64,000 bases of DNA from Klebsiella variicola (GTDB lineage Bacteria; Pseudomonadota; Gammaproteobacteria; Enterobacterales; Enterobacteriaceae): positions 3,162,001 to 3,226,000 of the forward strand of contig NZ_CP010523.2 of assembly GCF_000828055.2 (NCBI RefSeq), given 5' to 3'. Below the pieces are notes generated by a model that ran no database searches, was not told the DNA's origin, and was given only the letters and a program-made list of their open reading frames with translations. Position 1 is the first letter of the stretch. Each line of letters opens with the position of its first letter. Of the stretch, positions 2,046-30,381 are shown piece after piece. The position numbers and the translations under genes are program-made.

Positions 2046-2233
2046 GCACGATGTTTGCCCTGGTTCTCACCGTCAGCATGCTGACGGGCGGTAATCAGGA
2101 TGTCCTGCTCGGCGTTTACGACAGTGAGAATGACTGCAAGGCAGCTGCAGAAGAGCAACACGTGAAAGCCGAATGTTATCCGCTGAAAGGTGTACTGGAC
2201 GAGCATCCGGCAGGGTTCACGGTGCAAATGTAG
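2042..2233 (+). CDS. DUF1482 family phage protein
   Basis: The 63-residue product starts MSTMFALVLTVSMLTGGNQD and has Cys residues at about 33 and 42. An N-terminal hydrophobic segment followed by a D-V-x-x-x-V-Y/D pattern and conserved Cys matches the DUF1482 family (YebW, and YdaF of Rac). AAAGGAG lies just upstream with good spacing, which fixes the start at 2042 rather than an upstream in-frame ATG. Function is unknown for the family. The place between the small early genes and recE is the same as in Rac. Confidence 0.75.
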   Translation: MSTMFALVLTVSMLTGGNQDVLLGVYDSENDCKAAAEEQHVKAECYPLKGVLDEHPAGFTVQM

Positions 2234-2241
2234 GGGGAAGA

Positions 2242-2397
2242 ATGCAGAAGAAATTCGGTTACTGCTGTAAAGCAATCGAGGGAAAACCAGTGGTAAGCAC
2301 CCTGTTGTACCTCCAGGGGAACCAGCTCGCACGGAAAGAAAAAGAGTATTGCTCAGAACGTTGCGCCTCTCACGACCAGATGGCTCACGAGGGCTAA
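2242..2397 (+). CDS. Small Cys-rich phage protein, 51 residues
   Basis: ATG at 2242 is preceded by GGGGGAAG. The product begins MQKKFGYCCKAIEGKPVVST and has a Cys pair near residues 8-9 and a second C-x3-C pair near 39-43 (YCSERCASHDQ), a spacing that could bind one zinc ion. Rac carries a comparable small zinc-binding protein (YdaE) directly upstream of its recET genes, so homology is possible but not established by the sequence alone. Confidence 0.6.
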   Translation: MQKKFGYCCKAIEGKPVVSTLLYLQGNQLARKEKEYCSERCASHDQMAHEG

Positions 2398-2534
2398 CGT
2401 AAACCCGCCGAAGCGGGCTGTACGTCCGGTGCCACCGACCAAAGTTACACCGGAAATTACCAAAACCAATGACCACCCTGAATGGGCGCTACCAATGGCC
2501 CGGGGGATTCTACATCCAAAATAGAGGCTATCAC

Positions 2535-5500
2535 ATGGAATATTTTTATCTGATAAAAGCGACTCAAAAATCGGGTAAAGCTGATGCCGTAATCTGGCGC
2601 ACTAATAAATCAGAAGCTCGCGCCCTTCTACAGCTGGACGTCGATCTGGAAGACGCTGGGATCGAAACAGGCCGCGGTAAGGATTATCAAAAACCAATTC
2701 GCACCGATTTCCCGGTTTTCAATGACCTGCCGGCGGAAGGTGTTCTCGATTACTCATGGTGCGAGCGCTACCAGCTCGGCGATGATAGTCGCACCTGGGC
2801 TCTGAAGCCAGGTCAGGCGCCTGCGGATCATCACATCGATGATGCCGGAGTATCCGCTGAGCCCGTTAGTGGCGTGCTGGTTGATGCCAATACTACTGGC
2901 GACGCGGCACAAGGTGAGACCGTGGAAACTTTCGGTAGCGATGAATACCAGGACGATTCGAGCGCGCTTTTTAACGTGGCAGAACTCCCCTTTCGCGCTC
3001 AGCTGCTGGCGCAGTATATGGCCGAAGAACGTCACGTTTATCATATCAGCATGCCTCACCGGCAGGAGCTGTCAGCTCTTGAAATGGACACTGATAACGC
3101 AGCCGTCCAGGATCTGATTCTGGCCGCCGAGAATGTCCCTGAAATCAAAAAATACGATATGCCGGCGCTCTGGAAATTCACCAGCGCCAATAAAAAAGTC
3201 TTCCCGGAAGGGAAACGGCATGAGCTCGGTAAGCGTATCCAGTTTGCTAAGCTGTGGTTCGCCACGAACGCGATCGACCGCGGCATTCTCACCAGGGAAT
3301 GGGCTGCCGGTAACTGCATTTCTTCGGTTTTGAAAACCGATGCAGTTACGAATGCTGGCGGCGGTAATAAAACCGATCGCAACCCTGACTACACCCATAC
3401 CCTTGATACGCTCGATGTAGAAATAGCCCTGGCCACAATGCCAATGGATTTCGATATCTACAATTTCCCGGCATCAATTCACCGCCGGGCCAAAGAGATC
3501 GTCCAGAAGAAAGAAAGTCCGTTCAAGGAATGGTCTGCAGCGCTGCGCAAGGTTGCAGGCATCCTGGATTATTCCCGCGCCGCCATTTTTGCCCTTATTC
3601 GTGGCGCCACCAGCGATATTCATCATTTCCCGGTAAGTCTGCAGACCTATATCAATGCGAACCTGACCGAGCATAAGTATGACGCCCCTTCTGCTGAGAC
3701 GCTTGAAAAAGCTGGTCATGTTTCATCTGACGCCGTCACTCTGGACGCTGTGAAAAAGGCTATCGATGGAGATGAAGGTGTGCCTGACCTGGAAACTCTC
3801 CCAACTGATTTTCAGGTAATTGGCACCGAACTGGTGAAAGAAGCTCAAAAGAAACGCCCTGACGCTAATCAGGTTCTGGCCGCCGAACGTGGCGAATATG
3901 TCGAAGGCATCAGTGACCCCACGGATCCGAAGTGGATAACCGAAGACCTGACCAAACCCAAACAGCCTGAAGTTTCAAACATGGGCAATGGTGTTTTTTC
4001 GATTGATGGTCTGATGGATAGCAAGCCAGCACCAGCACCAGCACCAGCACCAGCACCAGCACCAGCATTTTCTATCGTGGACCAGGCGCGCCAGCGCGCT
4101 GCAGAAGAAAAATTACATCCAGCTAATTCCGGGGAAACCACCAGCGATGTGCAGATGGAAACGGCTCAGCCGGTCAAAAACGAAAATGATAATGCGGTAT
4201 CAGCAGGCGAAGGCGCTGATGAGCCTCCTGCGCAAACAACTGCCGTGAACATGAGCAAAATACTGGCTGAACGCTGCCCGGATCTTACCGCCGAAGTGCT
4301 GAAAAGCCAGGTTTCCGAGAGTGCTCATAGCGATGAAGAGGAAGTGGCTGAACAAGCAGCGCCAGCATGGCCGGAGTATTTCGAGCCTGGTCGATATGAA
4401 GGCGTGCCAAATGAGATCTACCACGCCGCTAACGGTATCAGCTCCACGATGGTTAAAGATGCACGGGTATCGCTGATGTATTTCGAGGCGCGCCACGTAT
4501 CCAAAACCATCCAGAAGGTGCGCTCTCCTGTTTTGGATATGGGCAATCTGGTGCATGCACTGGCGCTGCAGCCTGATCAGCTGGAAAAAGAATTCAGTAT
4601 CGAGCCGGAAATTCCGGAAGGCGCCTTCACCACGACGGCGACGATCCGCGCATTTATCGATGAATACAACAACGGGCTTCCGGTTTTGCTCAGCGCAGAG
4701 GACATCAAGAGATTCCTGGAGGAATACAACGCGAACCTGCCCGCCCAGGTTCCCTTGGGTACATCAGTTGAAGAAACCGGCCAAGGTTATATGTCTTTAC
4801 CTGCTGAGTTCCAGCGCATTGAAGACGGTCAGAAGCAAACCGCCACCGCAATGAAGGCCTGCATCAAAGAATACAACGCCACCCTGCCCGCCCAGGTGAA
4901 AACCAGCGGTGGCCGCGATGTCTTACTGGAACAGCTGGCGCTTATTAATCCTGACATGGTTGCTCAGGAAGCACAGAAGGCGCAGCCCCTGAAAGTCTCT
5001 GGCACAAAGGCCGATCTGATTCAAGCCGTGAAATCGGTAAAACCGGATGCCGTGTTTGCCGACGAGCTGCTGGATGCATGGCGCGAGAACCCGGAAGGAA
5101 AAGTGCTGGTTACCCGCCAGCAGCTGGCTACGGCACTGGCCATTCAGAAAGCACTGTTGAATCACCCTACCGCCGGCAAGTTGTTGACGCACCCGAGCCG
5201 TGCCGTCGAGGTGAGCTATTTCGGCATTGATGAGGAAACCGGGCTGGAAGTTCGCGTGCGCCCTGACCTTGAAATAGACATGGGCGGCCTGCGCATTGGT
5301 GCGGACCTGAAAACCATCAGTATGTGGAACATTAAGCAGGAAGGCCTGCGCGCGAAGCTGCACCGGGAAATCATCGAGCGCGATTACCACCTGAGCGCGG
5401 CTATGTACTGCGAAACCGCAGCCCTTGACCAGTTCTTCTGGATATTCGTCAACAAAGACGAGAACTACCACTGGATCGCCATCATCGAGGCATCCGAAGA

Positions 5501-5660
5501 ACTGCTGGAACTCGGCATGCTGGAATATCGCAAAGCAATGCGTGCCATCGCGAACGGTTTCGACACTGGCAAATGGCCGGCGCCGATTACCGAAGACTAC
5601 ACCGAAGAACTTAACGATTTTGATATGCGCCGTCTCGAAGCGCTGCGCGTACAGGCATAA
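2535..5660 (+). CDS. recE: Exonuclease VIII (RecE), long form with internal repeats
   Basis: The product is a 5'-3' double-strand exonuclease that leaves 3' tails for RecT annealing. The N-terminal part (MEYFYLIKATQKSGKADAVI, then FPVFNDLPAEG) and the middle (ANAGGGNKTDR) match E. coli RecE. The nuclease domain starts near residue 616 (PGRYEGVPNEIYH) and shows the RecB-type core: His in LVHALALQP, Asp in RPDLE near 907, and D-x-K in GADLKT near 922. At 1041 residues it is longer than the 866 of E. coli RecE. The extra length includes a Pro-Ala run near 498 and a repeated segment at about 696-789 inside the nuclease domain. ATG 2535 was preferred over 2469, which lacks a ribosome-binding site. 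Confidence 0.93.
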   Translation: MEYFYLIKATQKSGKADAVIWRTNKSEARALLQLDVDLEDAGIETGRGKDYQKPIRTDFPVFNDLPAEGVLDYSWCERYQLGDDSRTWALKPGQAPADHHIDDAGVSAEPVSGVLVDANTTGDAAQGETVETFGSDEYQDDSSALFNVAELPFRAQLLAQYMAEERHVYHISMPHRQELSALEMDTDNAAVQDLILAAENVPEIKKYDMPALWKFTSANKKVFPEGKRHELGKRIQFAKLWFATNAIDRGILTREWAAGNCISSVLKTDAVTNAGGGNKTDRNPDYTHTLDTLDVEIALATMPMDFDIYNFPASIHRRAKEIVQKKESPFKEWSAALRKVAGILDYSRAAIFALIRGATSDIHHFPVSLQTYINANLTEHKYDAPSAETLEKAGHVSSDAVTLDAVKKAIDGDEGVPDLETLPTDFQVIGTELVKEAQKKRPDANQVLAAERGEYVEGISDPTDPKWITEDLTKPKQPEVSNMGNGVFSIDGLMDSKPAPAPAPAPAPAPAFSIVDQARQRAAEEKLHPANSGETTSDVQMETAQPVKNENDNAVSAGEGADEPPAQTTAVNMSKILAERCPDLTAEVLKSQVSESAHSDEEEVAEQAAPAWPEYFEPGRYEGVPNEIYHAANGISSTMVKDARVSLMYFEARHVSKTIQKVRSPVLDMGNLVHALALQPDQLEKEFSIEPEIPEGAFTTTATIRAFIDEYNNGLPVLLSAEDIKRFLEEYNANLPAQVPLGTSVEETGQGYMSLPAEFQRIEDGQKQTATAMKACIKEYNATLPAQVKTSGGRDVLLEQLALINPDMVAQEAQKAQPLKVSGTKADLIQAVKSVKPDAVFADELLDAWRENPEGKVLVTRQQLATALAIQKALLNHPTAGKLLTHPSRAVEVSYFGIDEETGLEVRVRPDLEIDMGGLRIGADLKTISMWNIKQEGLRAKLHREIIERDYHLSAAMYCETAALDQFFWIFVNKDENYHWIAIIEASEELLELGMLEYRKAMRAIANGFDTGKWPAPITEDYTEELNDFDMRRLEALRVQA
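4026..4067 (+). repeat. Seven tandem CCAGCA units coding for Pro-Ala
   Basis: Seven perfect six-base units encode a (Pro-Ala)n linker in the middle of recE, between the N-terminal region and the nuclease domain. Perfect short repeats like this are prone to change in unit number, in frame, which would alter only linker length. Confidence 0.9.
4620..4900 (+). repeat. Diverged internal repeats within recE nuclease domain
   Basis: A segment coding for an F/I-x-E-Y-N-x-x-L-P motif occurs three times (around 4660, 4722-4750 and 4869-4897). The last two copies are nearly identical at DNA level over 29 bases. They code for FLEEYNANLPAQV and CIKEYNATLPAQV. The repeats lie between the conserved His and the Asp/Lys motifs, so they insert into the nuclease fold as an extra module. 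Confidence 0.7.
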
Positions 5661-5672
5661 GGGGGAACAGTC

Positions 5673-6782
5673 ATGGAAAACACTAACATTGTTACAGCCG
5701 AACAGCAGGCACCAAACACCATTTCAGCTAGCAACGCGATCTTTAACGTTCAGGCTCTCGGTCAGTTAACTGCTTTCGCAAACCTTATGGCTGATTCACA
5801 AGTGACTGTGCCAGCTCACCTTGCAGGTAAGCCAGCCGATTGCATGGCCATCGTTATGCAGGCTATGCAGTGGGGCATGAATCCCTATGCAGTCGCGCAA
5901 AAAACGCATCTGGTAAACGGTGTGCTCGGATATGAAGCCCAGCTCGTCAACGCGGTAATCGCCAGTTCCAGCGCTATTAACGGTCGATTTCATTATCGCT
6001 ACGGCGGCGACTGGGAACGTTGCACAAGGACGCAGGAAATTACCAGGGAAAAACACGGTAAAAATGGGAAATACAGCGTTACAGAACGGGTGCGCGGCTG
6101 GACTGATGAAGACGAAATCGGGTTATTCGTCCAGGTCGGCGCGATTCTGCGCGGTGAATCAGAAATCACCTGGGGGGAGCCACTTTATCTCTCTGGAGTC
6201 GTCACACGTAATTCTCCTTTGTGGGTTTCTAACCCGAAACAGCAGATCGCTTATCTGGGCGTCAAATACTGGGCACGGCTGTATTGCCCGGAAGTCATCC
6301 TGGGTGTTTACAGCCCGGATGAAGTTGAACAAAGGACCGAGCGAGAAATAAACCCGGCGCCGGCGCAAAGAATGTCTGTCGCAGAGATCACCAGCGGAAC
6401 AGACATCACCACCAGCGCGCAGGATTCAGCTCTCAATATTGATTCCCTGGCAGATGATTTCCGTGACCGCATTGAGCGCGCCGAATCGGTCGATGCAGCA
6501 AAAGCCATCAGGGCGGATCTGGATAAAGAGAAAGCTGTGTTGGGCACTGTTCTTTTCACCGAACTGAAAGGTAAAGCCGTGCAGCGTTATTTCATGGTAG
6601 ACGCCCGAAACAAAGTTGAGGCCGCGATCAACTCTCTACCTAATCCCGGAGAACCGGAAGCCGTCGAACTGTTCGCTAAAGCTGAAGGCATTCTCAACGG
6701 CGCGAAACGCCACCTCGGTGATGAACTGTATGACCAGTTCCGCATCGCCCTGGACGACATGAAACCGGAATACGTGGGTTAA
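5673..6782 (+). CDS. recT: RecT family single-strand annealing protein
   Basis: This 369-residue protein anneals single strands made by RecE for phage recombination and repair. The conserved core is at about residues 35-230, with the Q-A-M-Q-W-G-M-N-P-Y-A-V-A segment, YEAQLVNAVI and the W-V-S-N-P-K-Q-Q-I-A-Y segment near the end. A longer C-terminal tail (about 240-369) is acidic and helical and exceeds the 269 residues of E. coli RecT. AGGGGG lies before the ATG, and the gene is 12 bases after recE, so the two are cotranscribed and probably made together. Confidence 0.92.
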   Translation: MENTNIVTAEQQAPNTISASNAIFNVQALGQLTAFANLMADSQVTVPAHLAGKPADCMAIVMQAMQWGMNPYAVAQKTHLVNGVLGYEAQLVNAVIASSSAINGRFHYRYGGDWERCTRTQEITREKHGKNGKYSVTERVRGWTDEDEIGLFVQVGAILRGESEITWGEPLYLSGVVTRNSPLWVSNPKQQIAYLGVKYWARLYCPEVILGVYSPDEVEQRTEREINPAPAQRMSVAEITSGTDITTSAQDSALNIDSLADDFRDRIERAESVDAAKAIRADLDKEKAVLGTVLFTELKGKAVQRYFMVDARNKVEAAINSLPNPGEPEAVELFAKAEGILNGAKRHLGDELYDQFRIALDDMKPEYVG

Positions 6783-6822
6783 CCAGATTGGGAGGGGAAA
6801 CTCTCCCGATAAAGGAATGTAT

Positions 6823-7062
6823 ATGCGATTGATTAACCGAAGCAGACACTCCCCTCTGGGCCGCCAAGCGTGCGATGCGGCACTGGCAAAACACGTTGAG
6901 CTTTATGGAGCCTACGGGCGACAGAAAACAAAGAGAACTTATACGGTGGTGGTTCAAGGCTCAAAGATCACTGTAGAAGTTGTTAACAGAAAAAGTAGCT
7001 ATGTGGCCACAGCCATGAGCTGCGCGCGCCGGCTACACCATCTGCCTGGACAATGTAACTAA
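6823..7062 (+). CDS. DUF4060 family phage protein
   Basis: The 79-residue product begins MRLINRSRHSPLGRQACDAA and contains the KRTYTVVVQGSKITVEVV core of DUF4060 proteins, which are found next to recombination genes in enterobacterial lambdoid phages. AAAGGA at 6811-6816 is directly against the ATG at 6817 but six bases from the ATG at 6823, so the latter was chosen. Function is unknown. It lies between recT and the excisionase-like gene in the same operon. Confidence 0.75.
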   Translation: MRLINRSRHSPLGRQACDAALAKHVELYGAYGRQKTKRTYTVVVQGSKITVEVVNRKSSYVATAMSCARRLHHLPGQCN

Positions 7063-7071
7063 GGGGTTTTT

Positions 7072-7386
7072 ATGACTAATACATCTCATAAATCAGATGA
7101 AATTTTGATAACCGATGACGTTCTGTCCAGATACAAAATATCGCGCAGCACACTTTATTTCTGGAGCACCCCATCCCGGATGCCCTCTTACTTTGCTCAG
7201 CCATTCCCGCAGCCTAAAATAAATGGCAGCCCTAAAAGGTGGAGACTTTCAGACTTGTTGGCCTGGGAAGATAACGTGGGGATCAAACCAGAGGCTGACC
7301 AACCAGCTTCTCAAGGTGATCCTGCCAAACAGCAAGCCAGTGACGCTGATCATCCAGATAATCATGCAGGTTATAACGTGCCATGA
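7072..7386 (+). CDS. Excisionase-like HTH protein
   Basis: The 104-residue protein has a MerR/AlpA-type winged helix at about residues 10-70 (LITDDVLSRYKISRSTLYFW, later KRWRLSDLLAWED), followed by a polar Gln/Asp-rich tail. AAGGGG lies before the ATG. Its place at the end of the recET operon next to int supports an Xis role, bending DNA at att for excision. Its last 104 bases overlap the 3' end of the convergent integrase gene, so the two transcripts are complementary there. Confidence 0.7.
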   Translation: MTNTSHKSDEILITDDVLSRYKISRSTLYFWSTPSRMPSYFAQPFPQPKINGSPKRWRLSDLLAWEDNVGIKPEADQPASQGDPAKQQASDADHPDNHAGYNVP

Positions 7387-8500
7387 CACCTGCCATATGA
7401 TGGCCAAGCAGTTTTTCCACAACATGTGGCGGCGCACCTAATTCAGAAAGGCGTGTCGCCACTGTTCGCCTGAGGTCATGGAGAGACCAGGGCTTCATGC
7501 CTGTTTTAGCTATAATCTGAGCAGAAAACAGAGCGACGTTTGGTTGTAGTGGCGGTCTGTCATCTTCTGGCCCTCTGTAGCGTGACAGTGTCACAACGTG
7601 TTTTGAAACTGACGTTTCCTTCTCTGCTAACATCATTCTTACTACTGCCTCGGGAAGTGCCCTTCTGACCGATTTCCCGGTTTTATAATCGCTTGCCGGA
7701 ATGGTCCACGTTTGCTCATGAAAATCGAACCACTCCCATCTTGCTGTCCTGATCTCCGTACTCCGGCAGCCAGTCATGATGAGAAACTTCATTATCAGCT
7801 GTTGTCTGTACTTCAATTTAGGAAGGATATTCCAAACTGTTTTGATTTCCTCATCACTCAATCTGCGATCTTTGACGGATGCTGTGAGACCTACGTCAGA
7901 GCGCCTAAGGCTCTCAATTGGGTTCACATTAATTACCCCTCGATTGGAGCAAAAACGGAACGTACGCTGCATCAGCCCAAGCATCTGACCAGTGACAACT
8001 CTTCGCCCCATGCCATCAAAAAGGTTAAGCCAGTGCGCTTTAGTGGTCTGATCAACAATCATGTTCCCCAGCACAGGCGCTATATGGTTATTGAAGTCCC
8101 GTCGGTTAACCTTGATTTTCACAAGACCTTCGGGGATGCAGTAATACTTTTCCCAGTAACCGAAAGCCTCTTTAACGGTGAGCGCTTCGACTTTTTTCTG
8201 TTTCTCCAGAACTGTTTGCCGTCTCGGATCGAGTCCTTCTGTCAACCAGGCCCTGAACTGCTGTCTACGTTCGCGAGCTTGAGATAAGGAGGTGGTGGGA
8301 TAATCGCCAATCGTTAGCTGAGCGGCTTTCCCGTTCCATCTGTAGCGGTAAAAGAATGTTATACTGCCGGAAGTAGACAACCGGACATTCAGACCATGGG
8401 CGTCCGATATGACCTCGATCTGGTCTCTCTTTTTGCCAAGAGCTTTTCTTAATTTTGTGTCGGTAAGCAATGTGTACACTCCGGAAGATGATATACACAT
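7283..8500 (-). CDS. int: Prophage tyrosine integrase
   Basis: The product is a P4/Rac-type tyrosine recombinase of about 405 residues. The N-terminal arm-type DNA-binding region (LTDTKLRKALGKKRDQIEV, GKAAQLTIGDYPTTSLSQAR) belongs to DUF4102. The catalytic domain shows Arg in GCRSTEIRTARWEW, H-x-x-R in HDLRRTVATRL and the terminal Tyr in ARYNLHDY. Starts are ambiguous: ATG 8500 is given here. ATG 8551 is further upstream, and TTG 8470 has a better GGAG site and yields the usual LTDTK beginning. The gene is antisense to and overlaps the excisionase-like gene. The 5' end faces sapC, placing att on that side. Confidence 0.9.
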   Translation of the reverse strand: MCISSSGVYTLLTDTKLRKALGKKRDQIEVISDAHGLNVRLSTSGSITFFYRYRWNGKAAQLTIGDYPTTSLSQARERRQQFRAWLTEGLDPRRQTVLEKQKKVEALTVKEAFGYWEKYYCIPEGLVKIKVNRRDFNNHIAPVLGNMIVDQTTKAHWLNLFDGMGRRVVTGQMLGLMQRTFRFCSNRGVINVNPIESLRRSDVGLTASVKDRRLSDEEIKTVWNILPKLKYRQQLIMKFLIMTGCRSTEIRTARWEWFDFHEQTWTIPASDYKTGKSVRRALPEAVVRMMLAEKETSVSKHVVTLSRYRGPEDDRPPLQPNVALFSAQIIAKTGMKPWSLHDLRRTVATRLSELGAPPHVVEKLLGHHMAGVMARYNLHDYLDDQRHWLAVWQDHLEKLVGQPLV

Positions 8501-8511
8501 CAGTGTACACA
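8471..8511. promoter_or_regulatory. Palindrome cluster at the integrase start
   Basis: Three related blocks, TGTGTACACT at 8471-8480, ATATACACAT at 8491-8500 and AGTGTACACA around 8502-8511, are spaced 20 and about 11 bases apart. Each carries a GTGTACAC-like palindrome or half of it. They surround the candidate integrase starts, so they could be binding sites for a regulator or for the integrase arm domain. Confidence 0.45.
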
Positions 8512-8640
8512 TTTTGGTTAAATTGATAACCTTCAAATCAATGCAGAACACACAAAATTAAAGCACTCAATGCTGGCAAGGTGTTGGTATTAGCGGGATT
8601 TTTGAAAAGACTTAAAGCATGACTAACAAACTTAAAACGG

Positions 8641-8662
8641 ATTCATATGCCCTACGATAGCG
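8641..8662. other. Prophage-sapC junction; likely att core at the sapB/sapC overlap
   Basis: In E. coli the end of sapB overlaps the start of sapC (sapB ends ...Tyr-Ala-Leu-Arg-stop within ATGCCCTACGATAG). Here TATGCCCTACGATAG is intact at 8646-8660, but the upstream sapB sequence is replaced by phage DNA. The residual sapB frame now reads from ATG 8619 as 13 codons ending in the native Tyr-Ala-Leu-Arg. This places the crossover at or just after 8646. The other copy of the core is outside the window, so its length cannot be set. Confidence 0.6.
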
Positions 8663-9537
8663 TTTATCTGGAAAAGCGTCCGCCCGGCGCGCTGCGCACC
8701 GTATGGCGTAAATTCTATGGTGACACCACGGCGATGATCGGCCTGTACGGCTGCGCGGGCCTGTTGCTGCTCTGCGTCTTCGGCGGCTGGTTCGCCCCCT
8801 ATGGTATTGATCAGCAGTTCCTTGGCTATCAGTTGCTGCCGCCGTCCTGGTCGCGCTATGGCGAAGTGTCCTTCTTCCTGGGAACCGATGACCTGGGCCG
8901 CGATGTGCTGAGCCGGCTGCTGAGCGGCGCGGCGCCGACCGTCGGCGGGGCTTTTGTCGTCACCCTCGGTGCGACGCTGTTTGGCCTGGTGCTGGGCGTG
9001 ATTGCCGGGTCGACTCACGGCCTGCGCTCGGCAGTGATGAACCATATCCTGGATACCCTGCTCTCTATTCCCTCGCTGCTGCTGGCGATTATCGTCGTCG
9101 CCTTTGCCGGGCCGCACCTCAGCCATGCGATGTTCGCCGTCTGGCTGGCGCTGCTCCCGCGCATGGTACGTTCAGTCTACAGCCTGGTCCACGATGAGCT
9201 GGAGAAAGAGTACATCATCGCCGCCCGCCTCGATGGAGCCTCGACGCTGAACATTCTGCTGTTCGCCATCCTGCCCAATATTGCCTCTGGCCTGGTGACC
9301 GAGATCACCCGCGCCCTGTCGATGGCCATTCTGGATATTGCCGCGCTGGGCTTTCTTGATCTCGGCGCCCAGCTGCCTTCGCCGGAATGGGGAGCCATGC
9401 TGGGCGATGCGCTGGAGCTTATCTATGTCGCACCGTGGACTGTGATGCTGCCCGGGGCCGCGATTATGCTCAGCGTACTGCTGGTCAACCTGCTGGGCGA
9501 CGGTATTCGCCGGGCGATCATTGCCGGGGTACAATAA
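8647..9537 (+). CDS. sapC: SapC, inner-membrane permease of the Sap ABC system
   Basis: The 296-residue protein is the second permease of the SapABCDF transporter, linked to antimicrobial-peptide resistance, and in E. coli SapBCDF is linked to putrescine export. It starts [20 protein letters not shown] like E. coli SapC and is full length. An N-terminal helix is followed by the five-helix DppC-type core, with the EAA-like loop near residues 185-205 ([17 protein letters not shown]). The prophage ends directly before its start codon, removing the sapB overlap and any native ribosome-binding site; only ACGGATTCAT precedes the ATG. sapD follows with a TAATG overlap. Confidence 0.95.
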
Positions 9538-10529
9538 TGCCGTTACTCGATATTCGTCACTTAACTATCGAATTTAGAACCAACGAAGGTTGGGTGAAAG
9601 CCGTCGATCGCGTCAGTCTGACCCTGACTGAAGGCGAGATCCGCGGCCTGGTGGGCGAATCCGGCTCCGGGAAAAGCCTTATTGCCAAAGCTATCTGCGG
9701 GGTGACCAAAGACAACTGGCGGGTCACCGCCGACCGCATGCGCTTCGATGACATCGACCTGCTGCGACTGTCGAACCGCGAGCGGCGGAAACTGATCGGC
9801 CATAACGTGTCGATGATTTTTCAGGAGCCGCAGTCCTGTCTTGATCCCTCTGAGCGCATCGGCCAACAGCTGATTCAGAGTATCCCCGGCTGGACCTACA
9901 AGGGGCGCTGGTGGCAACGGCTGGGCTGGCGTAAGCGCCGGGCCATCGAGCTGTTGCACCGCGTCGGCATTAAAGATCACAAAGATGCCATGCGCAGTTT
10001 CCCCTATCAGTTGACCGAGGGCGAGTGCCAGAAGGTGATGATTGCCATCGCCCTGGCCAACCAGCCGCGCCTACTGATCGCCGATGAACCGACCAACGCC
10101 ATGGAGCCAACGACTCAGGCGCAGATTATCCGCCTGCTGACGCGGCTCAATCAGAACAACAACACCACCATTTTGCTGATCAGCCACGATCTGCAGATGC
10201 TCAGCAAATGGGCGGATAAAATCAACGTCATGTACTGCGGGCAGACGGTGGAGAGCGGGCCCAGCGAAGAGCTGGTCACCCTGCCGCATCACCCCTATAC
10301 CCAGGCGTTAATCCGCGCGATCCCGGATTTTGGCAGCGCCATGCCGCATAAAAGCCGCCTCAACACCCTGCCAGGGGCGATCCCTCTGCTGGAGCAGCTG
10401 CCCATCGGCTGCCGTCTGGGGCCGCGCTGCCCTTACGCCCAGCGCGAGTGTATCGAAACGCCGCGTCTTACCGGGGCGCGCAACCATCTGTACGCCTGTC
10501 ATTTCCCGCTGAACATGGAGAAAGAGTGA
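9537..10529 (+). CDS. sapD: SapD, ATPase of the Sap ABC system
   Basis: A 330-residue dipeptide/oligopeptide-type ATPase. Walker A is GESGSGKSL near residue 40, Walker B is [11 protein letters not shown], and the signature is the atypical [12 protein letters not shown] rather than LSGGQ. The C-terminal OppD/F-type extension with Cys residues ([16 protein letters not shown]) is present. The start overlaps the sapC stop (TAATG), which selects this ATG over frames extending upstream. In E. coli SapD is also reported to affect the Trk potassium system. Cotranscribed with sapC and sapF. Confidence 0.95.
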
Positions 10530-10530
10530 A

Positions 10531-11340
10531 ATGGTCGAAACATTGCTGGAAGTTCGCCAACTCAGTAAGACCTTTCGCTACCGCACCGGCTGGTTTCACC
10601 GCCAGACGGTGGAGGCCGTCAAGCCGCTGAGTTTTACCCTGCGTGAACGCCAGACGCTGGCGATTATCGGCGAGAACGGCTCCGGGAAATCCACCCTCGC
10701 CAAGATGCTGGCGGGCATGGTGGAACCCACCAGCGGCGAGCTGTTGATCGACGACCATCCGCTGACTTTCGGGGACTACTCCTACCGCAGCCAGAAGATT
10801 CGTATGATCTTTCAGGATCCGTCGACCTCACTGAACCCGCGCCAGCGCATCTCGCAGATCCTCGATTTTCCACTGCGGCTGAATACCGACCTCGACGCCG
10901 AGGCGCGGCAAAAGCAGATTATCGACACGCTGCGCATGGTCGGTCTGCTGCCGGACCACGTCAGCTATTACCCCCATATGTTGGCGCCCGGGCAGAAGCA
11001 GCGTCTCGGCCTCGCCAGGGCGCTGATCCTGCGCCCGAAGGTCATCGTCTGCGATGAGGCGTTGGCCTCGCTGGATATGTCGATGCGCTCCCAGCTCATC
11101 AATCTGATGCTGGAGCTGCAGGAGAAACAGGGCATCTCCTATATCTATGTCACTCAGCACCTGGGAATGATGAAGCACATCAGCGATCAAGTGCTGGTGA
11201 TGCATAACGGCGAAGTGGTCGAGCGCGGCAGCACTGCCGATGTGCTGGCCTCACCGCTGCACGACCTGACCCGACGCCTGATCGCCGGCCACTTCGGTGA
11301 AGCTCTCACCGCTGATGCCTGGCGCAAAGACGGGAAATAG
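10531..11340 (+). CDS. sapF: SapF, second ATPase of the Sap ABC system
   Basis: A 269-residue ABC ATPase with Walker A GENGSGKST near residue 47, Q-loop IFQDPSTSLNPRQRI, and Walker B VIVCDEALASLD. The usual LSGGQ is replaced by LAPGQKQRLGLA, as in E. coli SapF. It pairs with SapD to energise SapB-SapC. One base separates it from sapD, and it ends the operon. A short hairpin at 11328-11348 overlaps its stop. Confidence 0.95.
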   Translation: MVETLLEVRQLSKTFRYRTGWFHRQTVEAVKPLSFTLRERQTLAIIGENGSGKSTLAKMLAGMVEPTSGELLIDDHPLTFGDYSYRSQKIRMIFQDPSTSLNPRQRISQILDFPLRLNTDLDAEARQKQIIDTLRMVGLLPDHVSYYPHMLAPGQKQRLGLARALILRPKVIVCDEALASLDMSMRSQLINLMLELQEKQGISYIYVTQHLGMMKHISDQVLVMHNGEVVERGSTADVLASPLHDLTRRLIAGHFGEALTADAWRKDGK

Positions 11341-11348
11341 CCCCGTCT
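11328..11348. terminator. Hairpin between convergent sapF and lyase genes
   Basis: AGACGGG at 11328-11334 pairs with CCCGTCT at 11342-11348 around a seven-base loop. It overlaps the sapF stop codon and lies 20 bases from the convergent lyase gene. No long T run follows on either strand, so termination is only likely, not certain. Confidence 0.4.
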
Positions 11349-11368
11349 CACTTATCTCGCTGGTGACG

Positions 11369-12868
11369 TCATGCCGGCGCGTGGCCAGCGTTCCGCTTGA
11401 GGATAGCCACTGCGCTGGCGATGTCCGGTGCCAGCCAGCGATCCTCCTCCCAGCCAGGCACGCTTTGGCGCAGCAGATCGCGCGCCCGACGCGTACCCGC
11501 CGCCAGCGTCTGCGGCTCGTGAAAATCGAGCCCCTGGGCCGCGAGTAAATATTCGATACCCAGGATCTGATAGAGGTTGCCGAGCAGGCGCTGTAGTTTC
11601 AGCGCAGCACTGGTACCCAGGCTTAAATGATCCTCCTGCAAAGCGGAGGTAACAAAATTATCCAGCACCGCCGGCTGCGCCAGCTGCTTATTTTCCGCGC
11701 ACAGCGACGCGGCGACGTACTGGGCAATCATCATGCCTGAATTCACCCCGGGTCGGGCGACCAGAAACGCTGGCAAGCCGCTCACCAGAGGATTCACCAG
11801 CCGGTCAAGACGTCGTTCGGCGATAGCGCCCAGCTCAGCCATGGCAATAGCCAGCAAATCGCAGGCCATTGCCACCGATTCACCATGGGGATGCGCCTGG
11901 GACACCACCCGCCACTGCTCAAGGGTGCCCAGGATTAGAGGATTATCGGTACAGGCGTTAAGTTCGATATTTATCTGCGTCTGCGCATGGCTAAACTGAT
12001 CGCGGCAGGCGCCATGCACCTGAGGCATCGAGCGGAGACTCAGCGCATCCTGGGTGCGAAGACCTTCGCTTTCGGCCAGCAGACGGCTGCCCGCCAGCAG
12101 CTCACGCAGCCGCTGGCCGCTGGTCTGGATCCCGGGACTGGCTTTCAGCGCCAGGATCTCGGCATCAAACGCCACAAGCTGGCCGCGCAGCGCTTCAAAG
12201 CTCATCGCCCCGGTCACATCGGCCCAGTTCATTAAGCGCTCGGCGTCGTCTAAGGCCAGGCAGGCCAGGCCGGTCATGCACGGCGTACCGTTGACCAGAC
12301 TGAGCCCCTCTTTCGCTCCCGGCGCGATGGGCTGCAGATTCAGCTGCGACAGGACCTCTGCCGCAGACCACGTTCGTCCTTGCCATAGCACATCGCCGAC
12401 TCCCATCAGGGCCAGGCCAATGTGAGCCATATGCGTTAAATAGCCAACCGACCCCTGAGAGGGCACCTGGGGGGTGACGCCATGCTGCAAGAACATCAGC
12501 AGTTGCTGCACTATCCCGGCGGAAATACCGGATTTACCGTGGCTGAAATTGGCCACCGCGGCGCACATAATGGCCCGGGTTGGGGCGACCTCCAGCAGCG
12601 GCCCCACCCCGCAGGCATGACTGAGCAGCGTATTGCGCGACAGCTGGTGTAACTGCGCTTCCGGCAGCGTAATGTTGCACAGCGCCCCCAGCCCGGTGTT
12701 GATCCCATAGGCCACCTGACCGGCGCTAACGATATGCTGGACAATCGCCCGCCCCTGCTCGATACGCGCCCAGGCGCTTTCGCTGAGGCTCAAGATCGCC
12801 TCGCCCCGGGCGACACAAGCCACCTCCTGCCAGCGTATCGGTGCATCGCCCCACTGGATCATATTCAT
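11369..12868 (-). CDS. Ammonia-lyase superfamily (HAL/PAL-like) protein lacking the MIO motif
   Basis: The 499-residue protein has the fold markers of histidine/phenylalanine ammonia-lyases: YGINTGLG (54-61), [12 protein letters not shown] (78-89), [10 protein letters not shown] (187-196), CTDNPL (306-311) and [11 protein letters not shown] (408-418). Two catalytic features are missing. The canonical GSVG-ASGDLAPL is shortened to GSVG-YLTHM (139-147), so the Ala-Ser-Gly that cyclises to MIO is absent. The usual Q-D-P-Y-S-L-R is QDALSLR (273-279), so the catalytic Tyr is Leu. The frame is intact, so this looks like a deliberate variant. Ergothionase is, from memory, a member acting without MIO. 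The gene overlaps the transporter ATPase by four bases (ATGA). Histidine ammonia-lyase activity is unlikely; the substrate is unknown. Confidence 0.85.
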
Positions 12869-13659
12869 ACGACCTGTCCTGGCTGTTGATGGCTGGAGAT
12901 AAATTGCTTAAAGCGCGCGGAACCCTGAGTGCCAAATAGCGCCTCAGGCGCACCGTCGCAGTCAATCGTCCCCTGGTGCATAAATACCACCCGGTTGGAG
13001 ACATGGCGGGCGAATCCCAGCTCGTGGGTGACCACCAGCATCGTCCGCCCCTCTTCCGCCAGGCTGCGCATGACCTTTAACACCTCGCCGACCAGTTCGG
13101 GATCCAGCGCTGAGGTGGGTTCATCAAAGAGCATGACGTCTGGCTCCATCGCCAGCGCGCGGGCTATTGCCACGCGCTGCTGTTGGCCGCCGGAGAGCTG
13201 TGCCGGATAGAAATCCTTTCGGTTCAACATCCCCACCCGCTCCAGCAGCTGCTCCGCCTGTTCAATGCAGGTCCGTTTATCCCGTTTGAGCACATAATGC
13301 GGCCCCTCAATGACATTCTGCAGGACCGTCATATGCGACCACAGGTTAAAACTTTGAAAGACCATCCCCAGCCGCGAACGCAGGCGCTCTATCTGCCGGG
13401 GATTCGCCGCCAGCCGATGCCCGCGGGCGTGGTGCTTCATTTCAATCGTCTCGCCACCGACGCTGACCACCCCGGCATCGGGCGTTTCCAGCAGATTAAT
13501 GCAGCGCAGCAGCGTACTTTTACCGGAGCCGCTGGCGCCGAGGATCGAAATGACATCGCCCTGCCGGGCCTGGATGGTGATCCCCTTCAGGACATCCAGG
13601 GAGCCAAAGGACTTATGAATATCGCTGACCGATAAGGTCACCGGACGTGAATCGAGCAT
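12865..13659 (-). CDS. Polar amino acid ABC transporter ATPase (HisP/OccP-like)
   Basis: The 264-residue ATPase has Walker [10 protein letters not shown] near residue 40, the Q-loop [15 protein letters not shown], the signature [14 protein letters not shown], and Walker [13 protein letters not shown]. The insert with [20 protein letters not shown] is typical of the histidine/lysine-arginine/octopine group. It overlaps the lyase start by four bases and follows the inner permease gene by one base. Tight coupling implies that import and the lyase reaction serve the same substrate. Confidence 0.92.
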
Positions 13660-13660
13660 C

Positions 13661-14392
13661 TTACTCTCCTTTGGTTATCGGCTTGAGCGACACGGTCGCC
13701 GGGTTTTGCCGGGTATGCGGCGTTAATCGCCGTTCTAGCAGGGCGTACAGCTGCACAATAATGAAATTAAGCAGCAAATAGATGGCCGCCGCGCAGAGGA
13801 ATACCTCCATCGTCCGGTAGGTACGCTGAATAATCTGTTGCGCCACCCCGGTGACGTCCCAGACGGTCACCAGGCTTGCCAGCGCCGTCGACTTGACCAG
13901 CAGAATGGCCTCCGTGGAGTAGGCTGGCAGTGCATAACGTAGCATCACCGGGGCAATGATCCGCCGCAACAACAGCCAGCGCGACATGCCGCAAGCCTGA
14001 CCAGCTTCAATCTGACCCGGCGGTATCGCCAGCAACCCGCCGCGAAGAATTTCCGCGGTGTAGGCCGCTGTACAGAGCGCCAGCGCCAGAACGGCGCAGA
14101 TAAAGGGTTCGCGCAGCAGCGGCCACAGGAAACTGTGACGGATCACCCCAAACTGACCCAGCCCGTAATAAATGAGAAACAGCTGGATCAGCAATGGCGA
14201 ACCGCGAAAGATCAGGATATAGCCTTTGGCGAAACCGCTAGCCAGCGGCCAGTGGCTCATTCGCAGCGCTAAAACGCCGAGGGCCAGTACGCCGCCGAGG
14301 ATAAAAGAGCAAATAAAGAGCCCCAGCGTCACCGGCAGCGCCGCGCCGAGCTTCAATAACGTCTCACCGAGGAAGGCAAAATCGATAAACAT
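13661..14392 (-). CDS. Polar amino acid ABC transporter permease (HisM-like)
   Basis: This 243-residue inner-membrane protein has about five hydrophobic helices. The HEQRO-type loop at about residues 115-145 ([20 protein letters not shown]) contacts the ATPase. It carries the [16 protein letters not shown] segment of His/Glu/Gln/Arg/opine permeases. It is nine bases downstream of the first permease gene and one base before the ATPase gene. Length and order match hisM/occM. Confidence 0.92.
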
Positions 14393-14401
14393 ACGGGCTC
14401 C

Positions 14402-15121
14402 TTACGCCTGCGCGGCGCTGCGACGCAGCCAGGCGCGGTTGAGATGGCTCTCCGCCCGGGTAAACGCGCGGTTAGAGAGCAGCGTCAGGATCAGATAACA
14501 GCCGCCGCCGATCAGATAGAACAGGAAATAATCGCGGGTCGAGCCAGCGGCAATCTGGCTGGCGCGCATCAGCTCAACGATGCCGGTCACCGATACCAGC
14601 GCCGAATCTTTGAGGCTCATTTGCCACACGTTGGATAACCCAGGCAGCGAATAACGGATAATCTGCGGCAACAGAATGCGCTGCAGGATCCGCCAGCGCG
14701 GCATGCCGATAGCGGTAGCCGCCTCCACTTCACCGGGCATCAGCGCCAGGCGAGCAGCACGGTAGACTTCCGCCTGATACGAGGAGGAGATCAAACCAAT
14801 CGCCAGGGCGCCAATCAGAAAGGGCGGAACCTCAATAAAACCGTCAGCGCTAAACAGTCGCCCCACCCATGAAATCATCCCTGAGCCGCCAAAATAGAAC
14901 AGGTAGATCACCAGTAACTCAGGGATACCGCGGAATACTACCGACCAGGCGGCGCCAAACCAGCGCGCTGGCGCATGCCGGGACAGCTTTGCGGCGGCAA
15001 TGACGCCGCCTACCCCGGCACCGACGGCCAGCGCGGCGAGCGACAGCAGCAACGTGGTCAGCGTGGCACTGAGGATCAGCGTCCCCCACCCGTTTTCACC
15101 AAAACTCAGAAGATTCAACAT
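14402..15121 (-). CDS. Polar amino acid ABC transporter permease (HisQ-like)
   Basis: A 239-residue permease with FRGIPELLVIYLFYFG near residues 63-78 and the ATPase-contact loop ALMPGEVEAATAIGMPRW near 125-142. It is the partner of the 13661-14392 permease. The gene begins 11 bases after the binding-protein gene, giving the usual J-Q-M-P order of histidine/opine importers. Confidence 0.92.
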   Translation of the reverse strand: MLNLLSFGENGWGTLILSATLTTLLLSLAALAVGAGVGGVIAAAKLSRHAPARWFGAAWSVVFRGIPELLVIYLFYFGGSGMISWVGRLFSADGFIEVPPFLIGALAIGLISSSYQAEVYRAARLALMPGEVEAATAIGMPRWRILQRILLPQIIRYSLPGLSNVWQMSLKDSALVSVTGIVELMRASQIAAGSTRDYFLFYLIGGGCYLILTLLSNRAFTRAESHLNRAWLRRSAAQA

Positions 15122-15132
15122 GAGAGCCTCAC

Positions 15133-15984
15133 TCAGGGGGTAACGTCGCTTTTAAACCATTTCTCGCTCAGTTTTTTTACCGTCCCATCGGCCAGCGCCG
15201 CCTGAATGGCGCTATCCAGTTTCGCTTTGAGATCGGGATCAGTGAGGCGCACGCCCATCGCCTCACCGCCTCCCCAGATCGGCCCGCTCATCAGCGGACC
15301 GCTCAATGCCAGATTGTTATTCTCCGGTCGCGACAGGGTGGTGTTGGCAAAGGTAATATCATCAAACACCGCATCGATGCGCTCAGCCTGCAGGTCGAGG
15401 ATCGCATCCGCTGAGTTGTTATATTCCCTGATGTCAGCGATATCCTTGAAATACTTATCAATAAACGGGGTGTACACGGTGCCGGAAGCGATGCCGATAG
15501 TTTTCCCTTTCAACGCCGCGCGCAGAGGCGCAATCGCCGCCTGAATCTCTTTCTCATCATCATGAAGCTTGACCGTCGGAGACGGAGGGAGCAGCGACCC
15601 TTTTACCGCAATGAAAGAGGCCGGCGTGGCAGCGTAGGCCTGGGTAAACGCCACGACCTTCGATCGCTCCGGGGTGACGACAATAGCGTCCATGATCACG
15701 TCATATTTTCCGGCGTTAAGTCCGGCAATCATGCCATCCCAGTTCTGTACCACCAGCTTGCATTCGATCTGCATCCGCTGGCATAAATTCGCCATGAGCT
15801 CAGGTTCGAAGCCGCTCAACTTCCCTCCGGGAAGCGTCAGGTTCCAGGGTTCATAGCCGCCTTCCGTAGCGATGGTGATTGATTTCCACTCTTTAGCGTA
15901 TGTTGAGCCACCAGACAGCAGTAGCCCCGAAAACAGGGTGACCAGGCAGGCCTGGCGGAAAGTAATACGCTGTTGCATTTTCAT
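15133..15984 (-). CDS. Periplasmic substrate-binding protein (HisJ/OccT-like)
   Basis: The 283-residue protein has a signal peptide (about residues 1-30, LFSGLLLSGGSTYAK) and the SBP family 3 fold: YEPWNLTLPGGKLSGFEPEL, DGMIAGLNAGKYDVIMDAI with TPERSKVVAFTQAY, then GIASGTVYTPFIDKYF. The Asp-Ala-Ile pattern after YDVIMD and the Arg in TPERS normally bind the alpha-amino and carboxyl groups of amino acids. Similarity to opine, lysine-arginine and histidine receptors is clear, but the ligand cannot be read from sequence. First gene of the five-gene cassette. Confidence 0.9.
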   Translation of the reverse strand: MKMQQRITFRQACLVTLFSGLLLSGGSTYAKEWKSITIATEGGYEPWNLTLPGGKLSGFEPELMANLCQRMQIECKLVVQNWDGMIAGLNAGKYDVIMDAIVVTPERSKVVAFTQAYAATPASFIAVKGSLLPPSPTVKLHDDEKEIQAAIAPLRAALKGKTIGIASGTVYTPFIDKYFKDIADIREYNNSADAILDLQAERIDAVFDDITFANTTLSRPENNNLALSGPLMSGPIWGGGEAMGVRLTDPDLKAKLDSAIQAALADGTVKKLSEKWFKSDVTP

Positions 15985-16188
15985 TCTCCCGATCGCGTTT
16001 TGTCATGATGGCTCTGGTCACTGCGATAAGATAATTCGTAGATGACTGCTCATGTATATACAAGCATTGACAAACCCACACACGCGCTCGATGATGGATT
16101 TGTGAGCCCTGTTGTAAATAATTTGTAAGCATGTTGCGACACGCTTGTAACAAAAACCATCCACCCTCTGAATTCCGCCGAGCAGACC
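15985..16188. promoter_or_regulatory. Divergent control region of the lyase-transporter cassette and hutD
   Basis: This is the only space for promoters of the binding-protein operon (reverse strand) and the HutD gene (forward). It contains three TTGTAA copies at 16112-16117, 16123-16128 and 16145-16150, spaced 11 and 22 bases, so all face the same side of the helix. This looks like a multi-site regulator target. No regulator gene lies next to it, so a host regulator or one encoded elsewhere is implied. Confidence 0.5.
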
Positions 16189-16731
16189 ATGATCTTTTTT
16201 TTTGATATCGCCACCTTACCCATCACGCCGTGGAAGAACGGTGCCGGTGCCACCCGGGAAATTATCGCCGTTCCTTCCACAGACGCCCCCTTTCTCTGGC
16301 GAGCCAGCATCGCCACTCTGCAGGCGGATGGTCCTTTTTCCCCCTTCCCCGGCGTCGATCGGGTGATCACCCTGCTGGCGGGACAACCGCTACGACTGTG
16401 CGGCGAGGACATCGACCATCCGCTGACGCTCTGGCAGCCGTGGGCGTTCCCCGGCGAATGGGCGCTGTCCAGCGTCGGGATCGTTGAGCCAGGGCTGGAC
16501 TTCAATATCATGACCCAGCGCGGACGTGCCTCGGCGAGAGTAAAGGTGATAAACGACCAGCAACGCCCTGCTACTGAGGGAGTCGCTTATGTTCTTCAGG
16601 GCGAGTGGGATCTGGCCGGGCAGCGAAGCGCGGCCGGCAGCGGTCTCTGCTGGCGCGGTGAATCCCCTGGCGAGCTGCAGCCCCTCAGTGCCAACGGGTG
16701 TCTGCTGCTGGCGGAGATCGCGCTCAAATAA
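16189..16731 (+). CDS. HutD/Ves family protein
   Basis: The 180-residue cupin-like protein starts MIFFFDIATLPITPWKNGAG and has the family hallmark W-K-N-G-A-G-A-T-R-E-I. Further family segments are FLWRASIATLQADGPFSPFPGVDRVITLLAG, the D-F-N-I-M motif and a C-terminal beta strand set. HutD is found with histidine-utilisation genes in many bacteria, and Ves of E. coli is cold-inducible. The molecular role is not settled; a governor of histidine or urocanate flux has been proposed for HutD. Its divergent place beside a lyase and a HisJ-type importer supports a link to histidine-like compounds. No strong ribosome-binding site is visible. Confidence 0.85.
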   Translation: MIFFFDIATLPITPWKNGAGATREIIAVPSTDAPFLWRASIATLQADGPFSPFPGVDRVITLLAGQPLRLCGEDIDHPLTLWQPWAFPGEWALSSVGIVEPGLDFNIMTQRGRASARVKVINDQQRPATEGVAYVLQGEWDLAGQRSAAGSGLCWRGESPGELQPLSANGCLLLAEIALK

Positions 16732-29991: not shown

Positions 29992-30381
29992 AGCTCCTCC
30001 TTTATCTCAGGGATGGCATACCCTGATTCTCCTCAGGGTCTCCATTAAAGATAACACATACCGAGCATAACACTTTGATAACAACCCAAATTGCTAAATG
30101 CGCCGAGGTCGACAGTGATTAATAGGGAATTATCCTGGAATCGGAGAAATAGCACCAAAATAGTGCAGAAGCGATGATAAAGACGATATTGTATTAGTAC
30201 ACGAGGACAAAAAAAGAGCTAATCGGCCAGCTGGCTATGATTAGCTCTTGTGAGTGATTTCAGATTGGATGAATCCAGCGGCAAAATATATTCTCCCTGT
30301 ATTGCCGGTCACTGATTTTATATTACAGTTTCCTTTCACTGTCATAAAAATGACATGTATCTACAACGATGACCTACAGCT
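29992..30381. other. acnA upstream region
   Basis: No gene was found here. The stretch must hold the acnA promoters on the reverse strand. It is AT-rich, carries a clear reverse-strand terminator at 30208-30249 for the small gene upstream, and no open frame with a ribosome-binding site. Regulator boxes expected from E. coli (SoxS, FNR/ArcA, CRP) could not be assigned with confidence. Confidence 0.5.
30208..30249 (-). terminator. Reverse-strand terminator between ymiA-like gene and acnA
   Basis: AAGAGCTAATC at 30214-30224 pairs with GATTAGCTCTT at 30239-30249. On the reverse strand the hairpin is followed by a run of eight T residues. It should end the cysB-ymiA transcript before the acnA promoter. 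Confidence 0.8.

Follow-up and report, generated by a model that had tools for sequence, protein, structure and literature searches.

The stretch of Klebsiella variicola DNA analyzed here (64,000 nucleotides of NZ_CP010523.2, hereafter the window) contains an operon of five genes on the reverse strand (15984 to 11369), flanked by sapF and ves/fabI. The genes for a binding protein, two permeases and an ATPase of an ATP-binding cassette (ABC) transporter are followed by the last gene (11369..12868), whose intact open reading frame encodes a HutH1-like protein of 499 aa. This protein has the fold of histidine ammonia-lyase (HAL) but lacks the Ala-Ser-Gly (ASG) triad that forms the methylidene-imidazolone (MIO) cofactor. 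We propose that it is probably a trimethylamine-lyase that acts on hercynine (histidine betaine), belongs to the Hut regulon and makes urocanate.

The triad is lost within the motif GSVGYLTHM (12428..12454, reverse strand; residues 139-147), with Tyr143 at the join. In the lyase stretch opposite HAL GSVGASGDLAPL the triad is gone, and in a pairwise alignment the three-residue gap corresponds exactly to Ala142-Ser143-Gly144 of Pseudomonas putida HAL. The scripted alignment, in which Tyr occupies the column of Ala142 and 143-145 are gapped, shows the same loss. An earlier note on this DNA had reported the triad missing with the frame intact and had suggested alignment to HutH as a check; both the intact frame and the exact three-residue loss are confirmed.

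In profile searches, the lyase matched Pfam Lyase_aromatic with 533 bits. It stayed under the cut-off of the hutH equivalog model (515.8 bits, cut-off 539.15) but passed that of a less strict subfamily model named "histidine ammonia-lyase" (536.3 bits, cut-off 524). The protein thus has the fold and the family profile of the MIO-dependent ammonia-lyases (HutH) but neither their ASG triad nor their equivalog score. A canonical ASG-bearing HutH (L002, 714.9 bits) is encoded in the same genome. One MIO-less Pseudomonas lyase (L066:9001-10464) scored 539.6 bits, barely over the NCBIfam equivalog cut-off, so such proteins can get annotated as true HutH.

The earlier note had named ASG codons in independent assemblies as evidence against a genuine loss. 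None of this kind was found: the same loss is present in 90 distinct sequences, the window's own included. Together with the separate ASG-bearing hutH in the genome, these sequences rule out that an ordinary hutH was missequenced or misassembled, an explanation to which we give next to no credence.

Active-site residues and relatives of the lyase

Active-site residues were compared in an alignment of 221 rows, with 20 exact duplicates removed and residues numbered as in P. putida HAL. Two classes were set against each other: 90 distinct YL[TSV]H rows (80 YLTH, 9 YLSH, and 1 YLVH; window included) and 107 ASG/MIO rows (P. putida HAL included). Because the rows were classed by the motif itself, it is the residues co-varying at other positions that are informative. 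Tyr is found at the join in all 90 YL[TSV]H rows, and Tyr53, His83, Asn195, Arg283, Gln413, and Glu414 are likewise retained in 90 of 90. Three other positions differ between the classes. Tyr280, present in 107 of 107 MIO rows, is replaced by Leu in 88 and by Met in 2 of the YL[TSV]H rows. Val386 (106 of 107) is replaced by Tyr in 90 of 90, and Phe329 (106 of 107, the P. putida HAL reference chain being the F329A mutant) by Pro in 85 and Ala in 5.

The absence of MIO could also be expected of a catalytically dead paralogue, such as a regulator or a partner subunit of HutH. We consider this improbable, since the substrate-side residues are fully conserved and the gene is under purifying selection. 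The ratio of nonsynonymous to synonymous substitution rates (dN/dS) against two Raoultella relatives is 0.10, with dS values of 1.25 and 1.34 that are near saturation, and argues for a maintained protein. The gene also stands in constant company of transporter genes, and these are of two different kinds within the group.

The lyase was found in 8 of the 119 genomes of the relatives search (own genome included) with 66-100% identity, always with the 11-residue motif stretch. Across the order it is rare, being found at E 1e-150 or better in 5 of 295 evenly drawn genomes. A search for homologues in E. coli gave no match at the megablast level, the distant mode not being tried. In a scan of named genomes, the best 80 loci comprised 57 from Pseudomonas (three of them contigs of one P. 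costantinii assembly) and 23 from Enterobacterales. The description of the protein in the earlier note as an unusual enterobacterial enzyme therefore does not hold, most of these loci belonging to Pseudomonas.

A phylogenetic tree was built from 33 rows, thinned by identity, with the motif columns removed and the long-branch row L042 excluded; rebuilding it with the window row (34 rows) gave the same groups. Four groups emerged, one for each kind of row (YLTH, YLIA, MIO, and ergothionase-like), all supported at 100/99 or better. The ergothionase of Treponema denticola is represented in the tree by three relatives found via a 41-residue piece, and the window lyase is not grouped with these ergothionase-like sequences. 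A single origin of the YLTH and YLIA types is neither shown nor rejected by the approximately unbiased (AU) test (p-AU 0.348 with 33 rows, 0.29 with 34 rows including the window).

An AlphaFold2 model of the lyase, built from 30 sequences, had a mean predicted local distance difference test score (pLDDT) of 84.8. Its top Foldseek matches in the Protein Data Bank (PDB) were structures of P. putida HAL (37-38% identity, template modeling (TM) scores of 0.88-0.90). P. putida HutH (1b8f; 37% identity) shares the fold and the substrate-side residues; it differs in carrying Ala-Ser-Gly and Tyr280, Phe329, and Val386, all of which are lost or replaced in the window lyase. T. denticola ergothionase (6s7j, also 6s7q) first appeared at rank 20 with 27% identity and a TM score of 0.87. 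It too has the HAL fold without MIO and, according to the available text of PMC13405746, eliminates trimethylamine from a histidine betaine. Its motif, SSIGEGDITT, retains most of the loop, so the triad was lost there in a different way. In the best reading, the window lyase works like ergothionase, on another branch and with a different deletion.

The GSVGYLIA-type lyases of Klebsiella plasmids and Pantoea sp. AS-PWVM4 share the three-residue loss with the window lyase; Tyr at the join, Leu280, and Tyr386 were found in 4 of 4 rows, the Pantoea lyase standing outside these rows and being known by its motif only. They differ in being about 39-42% identical to the window lyase, in having Gly or Ser instead of Asn195, and in their partners. 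On a K. pneumoniae plasmid, the partner of the lyase is an OsmF-like binding protein (under that model's cut-off), the solved relatives of which include the ergothioneine-binding EgtUC. On this plasmid (NZ_CP083797.1, L041 10-13352), the YLIA-type lyase beside the OsmF-like transporter is the sole HAL-like gene in a hut cluster with hutG, hutI, an NCS1 permease, hutU, hutC, hutF, and hutD. Of the 895 plasmid records matched, 163 carry this lyase at 95% identity or more; among the 40 listed, Klebsiella accounts for 39 and E. coli for 1.

Transporters, gene neighborhoods and the HutC-type operator

The lyase start is overlapped by 4 bases by the gene for the ATPase (12865..13659), which is HisP/TcyN-like, under the cut-offs of both models. 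Profile matches were found for an ArtM/HisM-like permease (13661..14392) and an ArtQ/HisQ-like permease (14402..15121). The first gene of the operon encodes the periplasmic binding protein (15133..15984); all four transporter genes lie on the reverse strand. The nearest solved structures of the binding protein are the octopine-binding (214 bits) and nopaline-binding (about 201 bits) proteins, with 103 bits for the histidine-binding HisJ. One Asp is retained in 31 of 31 rows of window-type binding proteins, whereas the two opine-binding proteins have Asn or Ser; this Asp presumably takes the place of HisJ Asp161. Divergently from the operon, ves (HutD family; 16189..16731, forward strand) is read from the same intergenic region.

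At all 23 Enterobacterales loci among the best 80, the four transporter genes accompany the lyase, and at 18 of the 23 at least one hut gene besides ves is located no more than about 9 kb away. On plasmids of Rhizobium, Sinorhizobium, and Burkholderia the same five genes adjoin hutC; in a Sinorhizobium locus, a gene annotated as N-methyl-L-tryptophan oxidase lies directly behind the lyase. The YLTH-type gene of an Aureimonas plasmid is the only hutH in its hut cluster. A plasmid of Rhizobium daejeonense (L037 7038-14734) carries a YLTH-type lyase that lacks the four transporter genes common elsewhere and adjoins a single binding protein of the PhnD/SsuA type; the same stretch holds genes for a molybdenum hydroxylase, a [2Fe-2S] protein, a cytochrome c, and a fatty-acid-desaturase-like protein.

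In Pseudomonas, the next labelled gene after the lyase is a canonical hutH, on the same strand and 44-185 bases downstream, in 53 of the 57 loci; the four exceptions have hutI (three) or hutC (one) in this place. At the one Pseudomonas locus that was annotated (P. simiae L066), genes for an NCS1 permease, an OpuAC binding protein, a permease, an ATPase, and the lyase lie between hutU and hutH. The permease and ATPase are of the choline/glycine-betaine kind, making this transporter one of the OpuAC/ProX-ProW-ProV type. Trp65, Trp140, and Trp188 of ProX, which we take to form its ligand cage, align with Trp in 59 of 59 HutX rows.

The gene order of these Pseudomonas relatives (hutU, NCS1 permease, three ABC genes, non-MIO lyase, hutH), whose lyases are 66-69% identical to the window protein, is that of the HutH1 system of P. 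fluorescens SBW25. The two lyases are equated here by gene order. The window transporter is of another type than that of SBW25, and the available text of the literature on SBW25 HutH1 names no other substrate.

A putative HutC-type operator, CATGTATATACAAG, lies at 16051..16064 in the 204-base gap between the genes for the binding protein and ves, its far end 80 nt upstream of the binding-protein start. It contains an exact TGTA-N2-TACA core (16053-16062), which is the published HutC core according to the available text of PMC12977541; the search motif CTTGTATATACAAG was checked against this core. The 64-kb window holds two exact cores against 0.25 expected, the second at 30356-30365. The operator places the operon in the HutC (hut) regulon, with binding by HutC predicted.

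Labelled genes were scanned for the operator 14-mer (up to 2 mismatches, within 350 bases upstream). It was found upstream of 60 of 64 hutU genes and in 29 of 31 rows of the window-type binding-protein gene, or 28 of 30, as L044 and L159 are one locus. No occurrence was found in 284 cases for eight control labels chosen from the same table as the test labels (ATPase, two permeases, hutG, NCS1 permease, sapC, sapF, fabI). Among the other labels, the 14-mer was found upstream of hutC (16/66), ves (7/23), hutH (5/64), ATPtau (3/66), hutF (3/61), and hutI (2/77), and upstream of none for hutD (0/52), the YLTH lyase (0/93), four small labels (0/8), and 13 further low-identity binding-protein rows. 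In its own genome, the window operator is the sole place with one mismatch; another place lies upstream of hutU, and both hutC and hutU are found in the same genome (L153).

Proposed substrate and its alternatives

In the proposed pathway, the ABC transporter would import hercynine and the lyase would eliminate trimethylamine from it, yielding urocanate, which would lift HutC repression and be degraded via the ordinary HutU pathway. HutC-type control and the company of an ordinary HutU suggest urocanate as the product. HutU was found in 28 of 28 lyase-carrying genomes (a 29th genome searched has no lyase) and in 5 of 5 lyase carriers of the order sample, compared with 140 of its 295 genomes overall. 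HutU proteins encoded beside YLTH lyases, or in genomes with them, scored 952-1021 bits and fell under both other hydratase cut-offs in 7 of 7 cases (L066, L035, L153, L163, L157, L156, and L036).

In Geobacillus HAL, the equivalents of Tyr53 and Glu414 matter for catalysis, and those of Asn and Arg for substrate placement, according to the available text of PMC11432326. In the window lyase, Arg283 would hold the carboxylate of hercynine, His83 and Glu414 would hold the imidazole, and Tyr53 would take the beta proton. Removal of MIO and the Tyr280Leu replacement may free space for N(CH3)3+, with Tyr143 and Tyr384 possibly lining it. Since a quaternary amine leaves readily by itself, the electrophilic MIO would be unneeded. 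The remaining residue roles are presumed to be as in HAL. The suggestion in the earlier note that a protein without MIO eliminates a better leaving group, such as trimethylamine, thus gains support from the active-site co-variation, the betaine-type partner transporters in related clusters, and the placement in the hut regulon.

Ergothioneine is another possible physiological substrate, from which the lyase would produce thiourocanate and trimethylamine. Like the window lyase, ergothionase is a HAL-fold protein without MIO (PMC13405746, available text; 6s7j), and the ring sulfur is the only difference between hercynine and ergothioneine. However, no thiourocanate hydratase over the cut-off was found in the 36 genomes with a YLTH lyase that were examined, and the S-methyl-thiourocanate hydratase was found in 1 of the 36 (the Pantoea genome of L161, beside another lyase), which speaks against ergothioneine. 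The own HutU scored 1001 bits as HutU and 684 bits as thiourocanate hydratase (cut-off 930). As both motif and branch also differ from those of the ergothionase-like group, the name ergothionase was rejected, and we regard ergothioneine as an unlikely substrate; the earlier note's comparison with ergothionase does not extend to the name.

One of three ergothionase-like loci is paired with a thiourocanate hydratase: the lyase of Burkholderia (L038) has one nearby (1050 bits, cut-off 930). The YLIA lyase of Pantoea (L161) occurs with an S-methyl-thiourocanate hydratase (972 bits, cut-off 880), ErtD, and ErtE. This Pantoea sp. AS-PWVM4 cluster (2169-15723), which also holds a bisC-family S/N-oxide reductase-like protein, looks, from its gene content, like one for S-methyl-ergothioneine use.

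The type of partner transporter gives a hint of the group borne by the precursor, which in Pseudomonas would be quaternary ammonium. A histidine betaine reconciles the transporter findings; the main alternative is another N-alpha-substituted histidine (a histidine opine, or N-methyl- or dimethyl-histidine), likewise converted to urocanate. The similarity of the window binding protein to octopine- and nopaline-binding proteins and the putative N-methyl-L-tryptophan oxidase gene behind the Sinorhizobium lyase would agree with such a substrate. Non-quaternary amines, however, would be poorer leaving groups on chemical grounds, the Pseudomonas partner transporter is of the betaine type, and the Asp replaced in opine-binding proteins is retained in every window-type row. 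We therefore consider this alternative doubtful and retain hercynine as the probable substrate.

Several observations weigh against the hercynine assignment. The binding protein of the window operon itself is of the opine-binding and not the betaine kind; the operon is distant from hut genes, and the evidence from hut neighborhoods is drawn from relatives. HutXWV of SBW25 is described, in the available text, as participating in histidine uptake. The operator was missed at the two rhizobial loci, and in the own genome it occurs, with up to 2 mismatches, at 4 places, barely more than the 3 of the reversed control. The pairing of lyases with hydratases is not a clean rule: the ergothionase-like lyase of Paracoccus (L040) immediately follows an ordinary HutU, which scored 943.5 bits and passed neither of the other two cut-offs, so the hydratase type alone is not decisive, and that of Sinorhizobium (L039) has no labelled hydratase nearby. 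In addition, the residue roles given above are mostly carried over from HAL.

Somewhat more tentatively, it appears likely that the importer and the MIO-free lyase, induced by urocanate via HutC, form an undescribed arm of the Hut pathway for hercynine degradation, with species of Pseudomonas, Pantoea, Erwinia, and Raoultella among its carriers. This would account for the SBW25 histidase hutH1, termed "not required", and possibly for hutXWV. No description of a hercynine lyase or of an MIO-less HutH was found in the open-licence PMC literature, subscription papers not being searched. If the assignment is correct, the second histidase annotated in many bacteria is a trimethylamine-producing enzyme with a new substrate, the annotation models naming it histidine ammonia-lyase need correction, hercynine uptake and use become assignable, and the puzzling extra hutH of a model Pseudomonas is explained. 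The lyase would also show how far the HAL fold goes without its cofactor.

Three further observations were made. The L040 lyase (Paracoccus saliphilus plasmid, 6767-10191) has a [VI]G[EQ]AD motif, and its hut cluster also contains a canonical hutH; this lyase may act on something other than ergothioneine. PA5093 of P. aeruginosa is probably annotated as a HAL-like lyase. The available text of PMC12772324 calls it hutG, describes poor growth of its mutant on histidine and urocanate, and reports a differing HutC site for P. aeruginosa; if PA5093 is a HAL-like lyase, the label or the phenotype in that paper needs a second look. Finally, phage-type genes (a RecE-like exonuclease, RecT, and an integrase with an Arm domain) lie at 2469-8551 of the window, with one end adjoining sapC, and this segment reads as the edge of a prophage or a prophage remnant.
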